This document shows, piece by piece, positions 35,976-40,706 of a stretch of 64,000 nucleotides of DNA. The translations under genes and the position numbers were made by a program. The notes under the pieces are model-generated. The model was given only the letters and a program-made list of their open reading frames with translations, was not told the DNA's origin and searched no databases. The stretch covers positions 1 to 64,000 of the forward strand of contig CAMAQH010000007.1 of assembly GCA_945860295.1 (NCBI GenBank), in the 5' to 3' direction. Each line of letters opens with the position of its first letter. The first letter of the stretch is position 1. The stretch comes from Prosthecobacter debontii (lineage in GTDB: Bacteria > Verrucomicrobiota > Verrucomicrobiia > Verrucomicrobiales > Verrucomicrobiaceae).

Positions 35976-38900
35976 CTACTTCTTTTCCAATCGCACATAA
36001 TCCAGCCCGAGCATGTTACCCGGTGCCGCCGCAGGATTGGGCGGAGCGAGGGTGAAGGTGAGTTGATGATCGCCAATGGTGAGGTCATGCGTGCCCCAGT
36101 CGAGTTCGTCGGTGAGGATGACTTTGTCGGCATGATAACCATCAAAGGTTGAGGCTATGGGCCTGCCATCGAGCGCAATGTTCATCACGCCGTAATCGCG
36201 GGCCATCGTCAGCACGGCGTGAAGCGTGTATTTGCCCGCCTTTTTAACAGGCAGCGCCAGCGTGAGTTTCTGACCGGGCGTGGCGCCGGTCCACCAGAGC
36301 TGTGAGCCGCCGCTCCATTTGTTACCAAAGCTGCCCATGCCTTGATTGCGTGTCTTGCCGCCTGTGGTTTCGAGGATCTTAAGCGCTTCGCCTTCGAGAG
36401 CGCCGGGTATTGTAGTCCCGGCTTTAGCCGGCTTCCCAGAACCGCCTGAAGGCGGGACTACAGAACTCTGCAAATACTTCACCAAGTCGATGACCATCTC
36501 TGGCTGCAGCGCATCAAATAAACCTTCCGGCATCGTGCTCAGCTTTGACACCTCCCGCTTCGCGATGTCCGCCACCTGCAGCGTGAACTCCAAACCGCCC
36601 ATCATGGCGATCTGCACCGCCGCCGCGCTCTCCGCTTTAGTGACGCCGCTCATCACTCGCCCGTCCTTCATGGAGAAAACATTGAGTTGGTAGTCCTTGC
36701 CGATCACCGCATTTGGATCGAGCACGTTTTCCAGCAGGTAATTCAAGTCCGCGCGATTGCTGCCCGTGATGTCCGGCCCCACGCTCTGGCCTTCGCCGAA
36801 GAGCTTGTGGCAGGCCCCGCAGGTGGCCATGAAAGTCGTCTTCCCCTTCATCGCATCGCCCTTCGCCAAAGCAGCAGGCGTGAGCAGGTCGCGATACTTC
36901 TTCACCCGCACCGCCATGTCGGCTTTCGGTGCGTTCACATCGCCCCAGGCGGATTTGATGAGCGCGTTGATTTCCGCATCATCGAAGGCTGTGAGTTGGC
37001 GCACCAAAAACGGTGAAAGCCCGGTGCTTGGCACAGTCTTCGCTTCCACCGCTTTCAGCAGCGCCTTCGAGCCTTCCTTGGTTGAGGAGAGTGTGTTGAT
37101 GGCATCGGGCAATTCATTTGCCGAGAGCTTCGGCAATGCCGCGCTGAGAATCTTCGGCGTGTCCGCATCTTTGAGCGAGGTGAGTGATTGAATGGCTTTG
37201 CGGCGGAGTGACGGCGGAGCGTCTTTCGTGGAGACGATTTGTTGCAGGAGCTTCGCAGTGGCGTTGTCTTGCGCTTGGAGGAGAATGGAAAGAGCTTTCT
37301 CTCGGGTTGGTGTTTCGAGCGTGATGGTGCTGAGCTGACTGCGGTAAACTTGCAGTGCGTCCGCATCGCCGAACAGAGCACTAAGTTCGGTCACAAGCTG
37401 TTCCGTAGTTCCGGCTTTAGCCGGCTTCGGGGCATCTCCATAACCGCCTAAAGGCGGAACTACAGTGCCCCGGAGCTTCTTGGCGATCTCCGGCCAATCC
37501 TTCGGCATCGTCAATTTTCCGCCCGTGCGTGCAGCAGCAACGATCATGGCGAGTACAGGGTCGCGCTTCGCGGCATCGGGTTCCTTCGCGAGTTCGGCGA
37601 GCATTGCGGCACGTCCTGCGTCGTCAGAGGAAAGGCGACGGTAAATGAACTCCGTCACCTTCGGCATCTTCGACACTTTCGCGAGCTGCAAGCCCGTCGC
37701 CGGGTCCGCCGCCACGACGGGCTCGATGCCATACCAGATGAGCAGCGGGATCATCGGATCGTCCTTGTCCTCGCCGTGCTTGAGCAGGGCAGTGGCGAGA
37801 TCTTTGCGCTGATCCTGTGGAATGCGCTGGAGAGCGGAGGCGAGTTCGCGGCGAACCAGAGGGGACGGATGCTTATGAGCCGCATCATTCAAAACGCGGA
37901 GGTCTGTGTCCGCGAAATCGGTGTTTAAAGCTGCAAGACGAACCACTTGAGCCACAAGCTTTTCATTTTGTTCACCCGCAAAGCTTGAAGATTGCAGGTA
38001 GGTCCCGGTCACTTGATTGGCCGCGAGCCATACATGTCGCATTGCTTCAGCAGTTGTCGGATTCAGGGGCGTTGCCGCCTTGGGAATCGAAGCCGCTTTG
38101 CCCCCAACATTCTTCTCCATCAGCACCCTTCTCGCCATGCGTGATTCCCACTCGTTGTCCGTCTGCACGGCGAGCTTCGCGAGCGCTTCATCGCTCTCCT
38201 TGGTGAGATCACCCTTCCACGGATTCCAGCCGTCGTAGCTGATGCGATAAATCCGCCCATTGCTCCGATCCCAGTTCTCCACGGCGTTGCTGCCGCGGTG
38301 GCAGATTTGCTGGTCGCTCCAGTCGCTGACATATAAAGCTCCGTCAGGGCCGACCTTTTGCGTGACGGGGATGAAGTGCATGTCGTTCGCGCGGAGGAAG
38401 TCGGCGGCGTGTTTGCCGATGTAGGTGCTGGCGTGCGGGTCGGTGTAGTTCGCGACGAGGCGATGGCCGTGGAGGTTGCCGAAGAGGAGCTGGTTGCGAT
38501 ACGTCCGCGGGAAGAGGCTACTCTGATAAATGGCGAGGCCGCAGTGCGCGTGACCGCCGCCGAGGGCGTTGGTATCGTTGTTCATCACGCCCGCGCCGGT
38601 GGTTTTGTCGAAGGTGACATCGGGTCGCGGATTGCCGGCGTAGTGCGCGTGGTCGGCGATGGTCTTGATGTCGTCGTAAGTGTAGGGATTGAAATGCTGT
38701 CCAGCCTGCCGCTGATAACGCCCGCCGGGGACGATGTGGTAGAGATGTGGAATGACGCACGCAGTGACGAACCACTCGCCATGCTGGTCGTAATCGAGTC
38801 CCCAGGGATTGCTGGTGCCCTCGGCGAAGATTTCAAACTCATGCCGCACGGGATGGTAACGCCAGATGCCGGCATTGATGGGAATGCGCTGCTCGTCCGG

Positions 38901-40706
38901 CGTGCCTGGTTTGCCGACCTTTGAATGTGTAAAGACGCCGTGGCAGCCATACAGCCAGCCGTCCGGGCCCCAGATGAAGCTGTTCAGCGTTTCGTGGGTG
39001 TCTTGGCTGCCCCAACCGTCAAGGAGGGCGTAGGCGGTGAAGTTCAGGCCTGGAACTTTCGGGCGCTGATCGGTCGGATCTGACGGATCGGGCTGATCGT
39101 TTCGATCTTTGTCTGGAATGAACATCAGGTAGGGCGCGGCACCCACCCACACGCCACCAAAACCTAGCTCAATGCCGCTGACGAGATTTAGGCCTTCGCA
39201 GAAGATTTTCTTCGTCTCGAAGGTGCCGTCGCCGTCTTTGTCTTCGAGGATCTTGATGCGGTCCTGGCCGGCACTTACTTCACGCGGCTTCGGGTAGCTG
39301 TTGCCTTCCACGACCCAGATGCGGCCGCGTTCATCAAACGTAAAAGCCATCGGCTGCACAAGATCCGGCTCAGCGGCGATTAGCTCGGCTTTGAAGCCGC
39401 CGGGGAGCTGCATGGACTTCAGCGCGTCGGCGGGCGATTGGCCTTTGGCGTAGTCTTTCTGGGGCTTCAAAGCAGGGCCGTAGAGCTTCTTCGGAGTCAG
39501 TTCGGCTTTGGTTTCGCTGCGCTGCTGGGTGAGAATATACGCACCGGCTTTATTGCCGACGACGATGTCAGGTAGCAGATCACCATTCACATCACCAACC
39601 TGCACATCGACGCCGACACCACTTTCGGCATCGACTAGATGTGGGACGAAATCGACGCCGCCTTTGCCATCGCGCTTCGTTTGATACCAGTAGATGACGC
39701 GGTGGCCGTGCTCGTCAGGGTCGTGACCGTTGTGCGCCCAGTAGCGCTTGCCAGTGACAATGTCCTTCACGTCATCGCCGTCGATGTCGGCGAGATAAGC
39801 AGCGTGCGGCTGAGAGAAGACGATGCCGTAGTCGCTGTCCTGCGGCTGCTCGCTGGCCAGCATGACACGGTTCCATGTCGGCTTGTCGGGCGCGGGTTTG
39901 TTTTGCAGGAAAACGGCCACGCCATAGCGATGCGCGGCAAGGCTGGTGAAGACATCGTTCAAGCCATTGCCATCGAAATCATACGCGAACATCTGCGCGC
40001 CTCCGCCAACGCCAGCGGCGAAGTTGTGTTGGGGCCAGTTCTCGTTTCTCGGTTCGCTGTTCTCGATTGGTTGTTGCCACCACCGACGAGCTTCAAGCAA
40101 ATCCATCTTGCCATCCCCATTCACGTCACCGACGCCGAGCCCGTGGGTGAATTTGGCGACCTTCAAATCATCCGTGACGGCGATGAAGGTCCACTTCTCC
40201 GTGGGCTTGTACCAGTTCGGGGCGAACCAGCCGAACTTACCGCCGGTGCTGCACACGATCTCTGGTTTGCCATCGCCTGTGATGTCGGTGAAGACGGGCG
40301 ATTCATTGTCCACCACATCGGCGACGATGTGCACGGGCCAGGGCTTGTTGTCGTGCGTGCCGGGATTTAGATACATCCGCGCCTCTTTGCCGGGGAAGCC
40401 GAGGATGATGATGTCGTTCTTCTGGTCGGCGTTGAAGTCGTGGATGTAGGCGAAGAAGTTGTCGGAGTAACCATTGATGCTAAAAATCTTTGGCTCGTAG
40501 TAGGCGTGCTTTTTTTCAAATGCCGGGCCTTCCCACCAGAAGGGGCCTGCGACCACATCGGGTTTGCCATCGCCATTGATGTCGCCGATGCCCGCGCCTT
40601 CGGAATAGAAGTCGCTGTGGAGCTGCTGGCGTTTCCAGGTGATCTGGGTCTCGGCGAAGAGATTCACCACAGAGAAGGCACAGAGTAACACAGAGAGAGT
40701 TTTCAT
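35976..40706 (-). CDS. Giant secreted PVC dehydrogenase: FG-GAP repeats, propeller, HEAT, cytochrome c, jelly roll
   Basis: A 1576-aa exported protein (signal peptide MKTLSVLLCAFSVVNLFA). Order: FG-GAP/VCBS repeats with calcium-type loops (DINGDGKPD, DVNGDGKMD, DIDGDDVKD); a PVC dehydrogenase propeller (from GFKAELIAAEP, with IKILEDKDGDGTFE); a HEAT-like helical region; a PVC heme domain with CGACH near residue 1295; and a C-terminal jelly-roll binding domain (GKYTLHAVLTMARDYG). Two palindromic DNA repeats lie in frame in it (36411-36462, 37405-37463) and each adds a VVPP...PAKAGTT peptide. Probably a periplasmic redox enzyme on polymeric sugars; substrate unknown. Confidence 0.88.
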   Translation of the reverse strand: MKTLSVLLCAFSVVNLFAETQITWKRQQLHSDFYSEGAGIGDINGDGKPDVVAGPFWWEGPAFEKKHAYYEPKIFSINGYSDNFFAYIHDFNADQKNDIIILGFPGKEARMYLNPGTHDNKPWPVHIVADVVDNESPVFTDITGDGKPEIVCSTGGKFGWFAPNWYKPTEKWTFIAVTDDLKVAKFTHGLGVGDVNGDGKMDLLEARRWWQQPIENSEPRNENWPQHNFAAGVGGGAQMFAYDFDGNGLNDVFTSLAAHRYGVAVFLQNKPAPDKPTWNRVMLASEQPQDSDYGIVFSQPHAAYLADIDGDDVKDIVTGKRYWAHNGHDPDEHGHRVIYWYQTKRDGKGGVDFVPHLVDAESGVGVDVQVGDVNGDLLPDIVVGNKAGAYILTQQRSETKAELTPKKLYGPALKPQKDYAKGQSPADALKSMQLPGGFKAELIAAEPDLVQPMAFTFDERGRIWVVEGNSYPKPREVSAGQDRIKILEDKDGDGTFETKKIFCEGLNLVSGIELGFGGVWVGAAPYLMFIPDKDRNDQPDPSDPTDQRPKVPGLNFTAYALLDGWGSQDTHETLNSFIWGPDGWLYGCHGVFTHSKVGKPGTPDEQRIPINAGIWRYHPVRHEFEIFAEGTSNPWGLDYDQHGEWFVTACVIPHLYHIVPGGRYQRQAGQHFNPYTYDDIKTIADHAHYAGNPRPDVTFDKTTGAGVMNNDTNALGGGHAHCGLAIYQSSLFPRTYRNQLLFGNLHGHRLVANYTDPHASTYIGKHAADFLRANDMHFIPVTQKVGPDGALYVSDWSDQQICHRGSNAVENWDRSNGRIYRISYDGWNPWKGDLTKESDEALAKLAVQTDNEWESRMARRVLMEKNVGGKAASIPKAATPLNPTTAEAMRHVWLAANQVTGTYLQSSSFAGEQNEKLVAQVVRLAALNTDFADTDLRVLNDAAHKHPSPLVRRELASALQRIPQDQRKDLATALLKHGEDKDDPMIPLLIWYGIEPVVAADPATGLQLAKVSKMPKVTEFIYRRLSSDDAGRAAMLAELAKEPDAAKRDPVLAMIVAAARTGGKLTMPKDWPEIAKKLRGTVVPPLGGYGDAPKPAKAGTTEQLVTELSALFGDADALQVYRSQLSTITLETPTREKALSILLQAQDNATAKLLQQIVSTKDAPPSLRRKAIQSLTSLKDADTPKILSAALPKLSANELPDAINTLSSTKEGSKALLKAVEAKTVPSTGLSPFLVRQLTAFDDAEINALIKSAWGDVNAPKADMAVRVKKYRDLLTPAALAKGDAMKGKTTFMATCGACHKLFGEGQSVGPDITGSNRADLNYLLENVLDPNAVIGKDYQLNVFSMKDGRVMSGVTKAESAAAVQIAMMGGLEFTLQVADIAKREVSKLSTMPEGLFDALQPEMVIDLVKYLQSSVVPPSGGSGKPAKAGTTIPGALEGEALKILETTGGKTRNQGMGSFGNKWSGGSQLWWTGATPGQKLTLALPVKKAGKYTLHAVLTMARDYGVMNIALDGRPIASTFDGYHADKVILTDELDWGTHDLTIGDHQLTFTLAPPNPAAAPGNMLGLDYVRLEKK
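36411..36462. repeat. Palindromic REP-like element inside a coding gene, copy 1
   Basis: Outer arms TGTAGTC/GACTACA (36411-36417, 36456-36462) enclose two hairpins, CCGGC-TTTA-GCCGG and CCGCCT-GA-AGGCGG: a cloverleaf-like shape. On the minus strand it encodes VVPPSGGSGKPAKAGTT in frame, within the PVC giant gene. Confidence 0.88.
37405..37463. repeat. Palindromic REP-like element inside a coding gene, copy 2
   Basis: Same architecture as the copy at 36411, with arms GTAGTT/AACTAC and hairpins CCGGC-TTTA-GCCGG and CCGCC-TAAA-GGCGG, but a longer spacer. Encodes VVPPLGGYGDAPKPAKAGTT in frame. The base changes keep both stems paired. Confidence 0.88.

Follow-up and report, generated by a model that had tools for sequence, protein, structure and literature searches.

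The window analysed here, a stretch of 64,000 nucleotides from Prosthecobacter debontii, contains a gene in which two short palindromic elements, here called copies A and B, are embedded in the coding sequence without interrupting its reading frame (Table 1), which raises the question of what these elements are, how they came to reside in this gene and how they are tolerated there. The gene product consists of FG-GAP repeats, a DUF7133 domain, a HEAT-like region, a cytochrome c domain and a C-terminal beta domain. The Pfam scores are 8.9e-70 for DUF7133, 4.5e-25 for FG-GAP_3 and 1e-5 for Cytochrom_C, and a match to HEAT_2 (7.2e-5) falls below the cut-off for that profile. Relatives of this protein in named records come mainly from Verrucomicrobiaceae or unspecified Verrucomicrobia, with 9 of the 59 from Prosthecobacter and with Planctomycetes among the distant ones.

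Table 1. Coordinates of the host gene, the two palindromic elements and the RAYT-like open reading frames (positions refer to the window unless a locus is given)
Feature	Position	Strand	Basis and remarks
Host gene	35976..40706	-	ORF list, translation, Pfam scan, AlphaFold secondary structure; product 1576 aa
DUF7133 domain	38235..39437	-	Pfam; residues 424-824
Cytochrome c domain	36690..36851	-	Pfam; residues 1286-1339
REP doublet copy A	36412..36461	-	Inverted-repeat search, pattern match, translation; 50 bp
Copy A arm GTAGTCCCGGCTTTAGCCGG	36412..36431	+	Pattern match
Copy A spacer, 10 nt	36432..36441	.	Inverted-repeat search
Copy A arm GTAGTCCCGCCTTCAGGCGG	36442..36461	-	Pattern match
REP doublet copy B	37405..37463	-	Inverted-repeat search, pattern match, translation; 59 bp
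Copy B arm GTAGTTCCGGCTTTAGCCGG	37405..37424	+	Pattern match
Copy B spacer, 19 nt	37425..37443	.	Inverted-repeat search
Copy B arm GTAGTTCCGCCTTTAGGCGG	37444..37463	-	Pattern match
RAYT-like ORFs below cut-off	L071 1-933 (G000 C44), L072 2076-3212 (G000 C3)		One at contig start

In each copy, two arms following the pattern GTAGTYCCGSCTTNAGSCGG point towards each other, an arrangement of two inverted REPs around a spacer that defines a REPIN, although single arms occur as well; all four arms start with GTAG and are self-complementary, that is, they have the tag beside a short palindrome that is typical of GTAG REPs. In the host frame, copy A reads VVPPSGGSGKPAKAGTT (residues 1416-1432, codons 36411-36461) and copy B reads VVPPLGGYGDAPKPAKAGTT (residues 1082-1101, codons 37404-37463). 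A search of the window with GTAGTYCCGSCTTTAGSCGG at no more than 3 mismatches produced 4 matches against 0.01 expected, and 4 or more matches were seen in none of 100 shuffles; folded as RNA together with their flanks, the two copies deviate from shuffled sequences by z = -3.53 (copy A) and -3.82 (copy B). The two elements are confirmed as real and lie far above chance. The preliminary description of this locus, made from the letters of the sequence, is borne out in most of its particulars: both palindromes are found in frame in the gene, the inverted-repeat search recovers the two spacer lengths, the translations contain the shared peptide VVPP...PAKAGTT and pairing in the stems is maintained despite base changes, with CCGCC..GGCGG in one arm and CCGGC..GCCGG in the other. 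The claim of two hairpins per copy holds to the extent that every arm is self-complementary, but the minimum-energy fold is a single long hairpin in which one arm pairs with the other.

To place the peptides in the protein, we used an AlphaFold model that spans residues 840-1576 (offset +839; mean pLDDT 80, pTM 0.59, 35 sequences). Four segments of the model have pLDDT below 50 (30-36, 244-258, 465-476 and 578-590 in the model numbering), and two of these, corresponding to residues 1083-1097 and 1417-1429, coincide with the peptides of copies B and A, respectively. In the model, both inserted peptides thus map to low-confidence loops, as had been predicted; the further prediction that these loops separate domains fits copy A, which is placed between the final helix that follows the cytochrome c domain and the C-terminal beta domain, but not copy B, which is modelled between two helices inside the HEAT-like region.

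The elements belong to a repeat family that extends well beyond the window. In the genome from which the window derives (G000; 4.68 Mb in 75 contigs, with a completeness of 95%), the exact arm pattern was matched at 8 sites and its reversed control at none. A wider pattern that includes GGAG tags yields, at up to 2 mismatches, 59 sites against 13 for the control, and a narrower pattern at 3 mismatches yields 44 against 34 genome-wide, at which level degenerate copies are inseparable from chance. Across 142 genomes, G000 included, the exact pattern is present in 41, and the control gave 0 in all listed rows. The copy number is accordingly high, as in GTAG REPs, being modest in G000 and reaching 52 exact arms in a relative. 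Linkers rich in Pro, Gly and Ala abound in GC-rich genomes, and low-complexity coding sequence might happen to be palindromic; given the excess of matches in the window and the empty control in the listed rows, we attach practically no probability to such a fortuitous origin. By our own grouping, the GGAG-tagged class (GGAGCACCGCCTTCAGGCGG and variants) exceeds the GTAG class in G000, with 12 against 6 doublets; examples are L042, L049, L059, L063 and L068, on contigs C2, C8, C15, C19 and C39.

The placement of doublets relative to genes was classified in four genomes (G000, G008, G015 and G042), with a doublet taken to be in a gene when an open frame spanned it and the codon score was positive on both sides, a rule applied without a gene caller. 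For G008 the loci include every one of the 34 exact arms, for G015 the 28 that were listed out of 30 and for G042 the 28 that were listed out of 29; for G000, the set was that of the wider pattern minus the weak singles C2:150582, C2:225888, C10:6353 and C14:37148. Twenty-five of the 54 doublets lie in genes and the other 29 were not classed as such, so that copies outside genes, as anticipated for a mobile repeat, do exist; GTAG REPs in general are mostly extragenic. The doublet unit measures 47 to 83 bp, with one of 121, and two single arms within genes are ambiguous as to strand (L231, L236). The in-gene doublets show a pronounced frame bias: 23 of the 25 share one reading frame, which gives VVPP..AGTT or, in the GGAG forms, GAPP..., whereas the share expected from the stop-free combinations of frame and spacer is 0.31 (p 3e-10). 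The bias persists (19/21, p 2e-8) when four sites taken as shared by descent are dropped, namely two in the G008 host gene and two presumed counterparts of the site in the G008 DUF7133 paralogue. The two exceptions are a G008 doublet that reads CSPGFSR...RLKAELQ and a doublet of G000 with an 81-nt spacer and weak arms. Spacer length is 1 mod 3 in 23 of the 25 in-gene doublets, and the other 29 are divided into 9, 12 and 8 for 0, 1 and 2 mod 3. The simplest reading is that the frame yielding a soft peptide is kept by selection.

A Pfam scan of 19 of the 26 other host open reading frames shows that loops and profile edges prevail as insertion sites, with exceptions. In an alcohol dehydrogenase/GFO-IDH fusion, the insert at 368 separates a profile that ends at 359 from one that begins at 403; in a PSD protein, it is at 712, between profile edges at 660 and 742; and in uvrA, it is at 626, with the ABC match starting at 661. 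Two DUF7133 hosts carry the insert directly after the domain (L230, profile 33-446, insert 450; L272, profile 191-580, insert 584). Three cases are ambiguous, with the insert at an edge by one profile and spanned by another, wider one: MnmE (insert 353, past the G domain at 229-341), a sulfatase (insert 394, past the profile at 69-391) and L237. The insert is outside the profile matches in L046, L055, L067, L275 and L278 and inside a match in 4 of the 19, which are the G015 kinase genes L231, L232 and L239 and the cytochrome gene L274; the host frames L043 and L226 had no Pfam match. In the three kinase genes the repeat is within the kinase domain, in two of them at 163 residues past the profile start. 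Genes of the DUF7133/cytochrome type have been invaded repeatedly (L230, L272, L275, L234, L243 and L260, from G015, G008, G042 and G010), and VVPPSGGSEPAKAGTT is the insert in L275, L234 and L260, which may represent one shared site.

The movement or copying of REP doublets is commonly attributed to a cognate RAYT, a transposase of the Y1 type that acts on single-stranded DNA. Relatives of RAYT (NF047646) are found in 45 of 47 genomes of the genus, above the curated cut-off in 25. RAYTs at large were considered as the mobiliser and rejected: the repeat at no more than 1 mismatch adjoins only 2 of the 30 first-fetched loci (L193-L222, one per genome, some ending at contig edges), and one specific lineage fits. 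In G008, G042 and G018, a RAYT sits between two doublets, and these three RAYTs are 66-67% identical to each other. A search of the 48 genus genomes, G000 among them, with the G008 RAYT identified matches with an identity of 66% or more in 10. In all 10 the repeat adjoins the gene with no more than 2 mismatches, as expected of a REPIN with its cognate RAYT; it is present on both sides in 9 of them, among which G047 has one arm on one of its sides, and the tenth locus, that of G011, is cut off 151 bases beyond the gene. Among the next 20 loci (one per genome, several shortened by contig ends), 6 of 10 at 48-62% identity are flanked by the repeat, compared to 0 of 10 at 37% or less. The 10 genomes with this RAYT lineage contain 9 to 52 exact arms each (median 30.5), or 310 of the 434 in all 48 genomes, and the other 38 contain 0 to 24, with 10 or fewer in 35 of them (p 9e-7, uncorrected for kinship). 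The G015 member of the lineage (L225/L328, C1:1624048-1624653) has an internal TAA stop and doublets on its flanks.

In the G000 assembly itself, the search gave 0 matches to RAYTs of the G008 lineage. Its two RAYT-like open reading frames reach 58.9 and 45.2 bits, short of the cut-off of 80, a further Y1 protein belongs to the ordinary IS200 type and exceeds its own cut-off, and the loci fetched around these Y1/RAYT-like frames contain no arm of the repeat. Because no member of the RAYT lineage was found in this (incomplete) assembly, the copies in G000 look like relics. We consider it highly probable that the elements are GTAG-tagged REP doublets of the REPIN/BIME type, tolerated as in-frame inserts, that stem from an ancestral RAYT carrier and now persist as relics. 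Under this scenario, an ancestor of G000 would have carried a RAYT of the lineage, and doublets landing in frame in flexible linkers would have been tolerated. Such tolerance could be explained by one frame, GTA GTY CCG ... R ACT AC, which contains no stop on either arm provided that the spacer length is 1 mod 3 and that T or C occupies the loop; if translated, this frame would give a Pro/Gly/Ala/Thr-rich peptide with a presumably near-neutral effect on the protein. The genome would later have lost the RAYT gene, unless this lies in the missing part of the assembly, and the copies would have persisted by descent. Against this reading count the failure to find a RAYT of the lineage in G000, the inseparability of degenerate copies from chance and the 4 of 19 scanned hosts in which the insert falls inside a domain match.

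The history of the insertion sites could be traced in an alignment of 53 orthologue rows that includes the gene in the window (at least one genome appears twice, as L119/L192, and several rows are partial). Doublet B is shared by L104 and L164 (G008) with alignable 19-nt spacers and hence predates these species. In other relatives, site B holds a half doublet (GPAKAGTT), a different hairpin or nothing, the insert-free rows including L109, L114, L127, L135, L142, L186, L187 and others. Orthologues devoid of the insert thus exist, rather than all having the peptide encoded by unrelated DNA, and together with the extragenic copies and the loop positions predicted by the structural model they uphold the earlier view of mobile palindromes that enter genes and are apparently tolerated as peptides. 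The evidence on mobility itself consists of presence and absence among species. Among these relatives, no empty site was close enough to define exact junctions or a target duplication, the insert-free sequences being too diverged. A quick tree was built from 45 rows with the linker columns excluded. At site B, 30 of the 45 rows, two of which (L119 and L192) are the same sequence, have a REP-like match scoring 17/20 or better, with scores of 14 or less in the other 15, and the matches fall into types F1 (11 rows), F3 (8), F2 (5), F4 (3), F5 (2) and F1g (1). On the tree, the states at site B require 19 changes, against a minimum of 7; when the starred branches only are considered, no fewer than 4 changes are required for F1, 3 for F2 and 4 for F3. 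The states are nevertheless clustered, with a shuffled mean of 27.6 changes and a value as low in 0 of 200 shuffles. Inheritance and replacement are thus both operating at site B.

Two of the other types proved to be multi-copy families in their own right: of 48 genomes, 31 contain F2 (GTAGTCCAGAGCTTTAGCTC) when up to 2 mismatches are allowed (control, 1 hit in all) and 25 contain F3 (GTRGYTTCGGCTTTAGCCGA) when up to 1 is allowed (control, 4 hits in all). Many F2 copies start with GTAC or GTAA. F1, F3 and F5 are alike and might have arisen from a single family by divergence, so that three kinds, not six, are secure. At L315 (G005 C36), five direct copies of GTAGTGCAGAGCTTTAGCTC surround a RAYT match, four of them about 145 nt apart, and this RAYT is likely to be the partner of the F2 family.

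A similar picture emerges for uvrA, a gene with a match in 48 genomes that was sampled by fetching 30 genes from the genus. In G000, uvrA is an open frame of 1920 aa, a tandem fusion in which a GTAG doublet precedes the second ABC domain and a GGAG doublet separates the two halves. The first linker is short and insert-free in five genes (L283, L284, L285, L287 and L291) and contains doublets of the same family in four others (GTAG in L298 and L299, GGAG in L294 and L300). Unrelated palindromes of the CTCAGTGCTCAGTG, GTTCTCAGTTC and TTTCAAGTTTCAAG types, as well as GTAGCTCGACTTTCCAAAGTCGAG, are found in frame in the same linkers, and genes with linker palindromes in frame comprise L286, L294, L297, L298, L299, L300, L306, L307 and L310. 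Inverted repeats with a length of 14 nt or more were detected in 12/30 and 9/30 of the uvrA linkers versus 5/520 windows elsewhere in those genes; in the cytochrome gene, they occur in 16/47 rows at site B and 7/45 at site A versus 7/381 windows elsewhere, counting the rows that are long enough at the site. The rows are related and do not represent independent trials. Judging by these sequences, uvrA linkers behave like those of the host gene.

Such recurrence admits a different explanation, namely that the linkers are true landing hotspots preferred by the insertion machinery of several palindromic elements, beyond the survival of harmless inserts, for instance with an older palindrome serving as the target for the next insertion. 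The range of types and the 19 changes at site B, the independent multiplication of F2 and F3, and the enrichment of inverted repeats of several unrelated sequences in uvrA linkers all speak for this possibility. However, survivorship would produce the same picture, linkers being where in-frame inserts do the least harm; the clustering on the tree implies that much of the pattern at site B is inherited; and the similarity of F1, F3 and F5 may reduce the number of families involved. On balance, we regard true hotspots as possible but rather unlikely. With similar reserve, we suggest that the linkers of the cytochrome gene, uvrA and the DUF7133 paralogues might be landing pads for unrelated palindromes, mostly read in one soft Pro/Gly frame, that mobile DNA could be a steady source of linkers and that the repeats themselves may be shaped (spacer 1 mod 3, loop T/C) for life in genes.

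Alternatively, the inserts could be kept because the hairpin or the peptide is useful, for example as a translation pause between domains or as a spacer. Identity at synonymous third positions across the whole of element B in the trio L113/L121/L125 lends this idea some credit, since only 2 of 1477 windows, that of the element among them, attain such a value, and the trio containing the gene in the window is fairly conserved too (65 of 1472). Elsewhere, however, the values are ordinary (100/1390 windows for L104/L164, 348/1301 for L108/L133, and 101 to 385 windows as high for single arms and half remnants), the insert is missing or halved in many orthologues, and one family takes the place of another. 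We consider a useful function improbable. A strong claim of selection on the hairpin was rejected, third-position conservation being exceptional in only one species group, and so was arm conservation in uvrA (L298/L299, L294/L300) as a sign of selection, these genes being close throughout and hence uninformative.

The elements provide a system in which the repeat, its likely mobiliser, the insertion site and the effect on the protein can be read together: one RAYT lineage tracks high repeat numbers across the genus, and a single linker records many insertions by different families. The recurrent invasion of linkers is the part worth following, and it makes testable whether it is neutral survival or targeting through which mobile palindromes become a source of protein linkers. 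A survey of the open-licence literature turned up nothing on these repeats in Prosthecobacter or on a single linker entered by several families of palindromes; the pairing of repeat and RAYT, the frame bias and the repeated entry into particular linkers are apparently unreported.

The catalogue of GTAG REPs by Di Nocera and colleagues dates from 2013. In that catalogue, GTAG REPs within genes are described, and O. terrae, a member of the Verrucomicrobia, is the richest case for GTAG (PMC3733652), so that the earlier statement that this phylum has no established description does not hold, and the impression that intragenic palindromes are unknown in Verrucomicrobia is corrected. The preliminary description had also likened the elements to Rickettsia palindromic elements (RPEs) in particular, and the outcome is indeed the same, with palindromes in frame and translated in conserved genes and apparently tolerated there (PMC2229807; PMC3733652). 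Nonetheless, the GTAG tag and the RAYT partner point to GTAG REPs/REPINs. The longer RPEs measure 105-146 bp (PMC2229807), compared to 50 and 59 bp here; the short RPE-4 and RPE-6 of R. conorii, which fall outside that length range, are classed as CGTC rather than GTAG, and CGTC repeats have no dedicated transposase (PMC3733652), whereas the present repeats adjoin RAYT genes in relatives. Membership among the RPEs or their relatives was rejected as highly improbable on the tag, the size of the longer forms and the RAYT link, RPEs being set apart here by their published descriptions and not by sequence.

The closest parallels lie with the other two systems. With the GTAG REPs (PMC3733652), the elements share the tag, the short hairpin, the inverted pairs, the intragenic location, the presence in uvrA, the occurrence in Verrucomicrobia and the RAYT flanks: in that work, uvrA is doubly hit by intragenic GTAG REPs, RAYT genes are flanked by GTAG repeats, more than half of the intragenic inserts are dimers or groups coding for 20-30 aa, and linkers or loops are suggested as the reason for tolerance of intragenic repeats. 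They differ in the group of organisms and, as far as seen, in the repeat itself, the 24 consensus sequences standing outside this comparison. With REPINs, defined as REP doublets (PMC3116915), they share inverted doublets with a spacer, predicted hairpins and the association with RAYT; the REPINs of P. fluorescens SBW25 are described as extragenic, with null-model segments of 71 and 110 bp (PMC3116915), whereas the doublets described here mostly span 47-83 bp and, in 25 of 54 cases, reside within genes.
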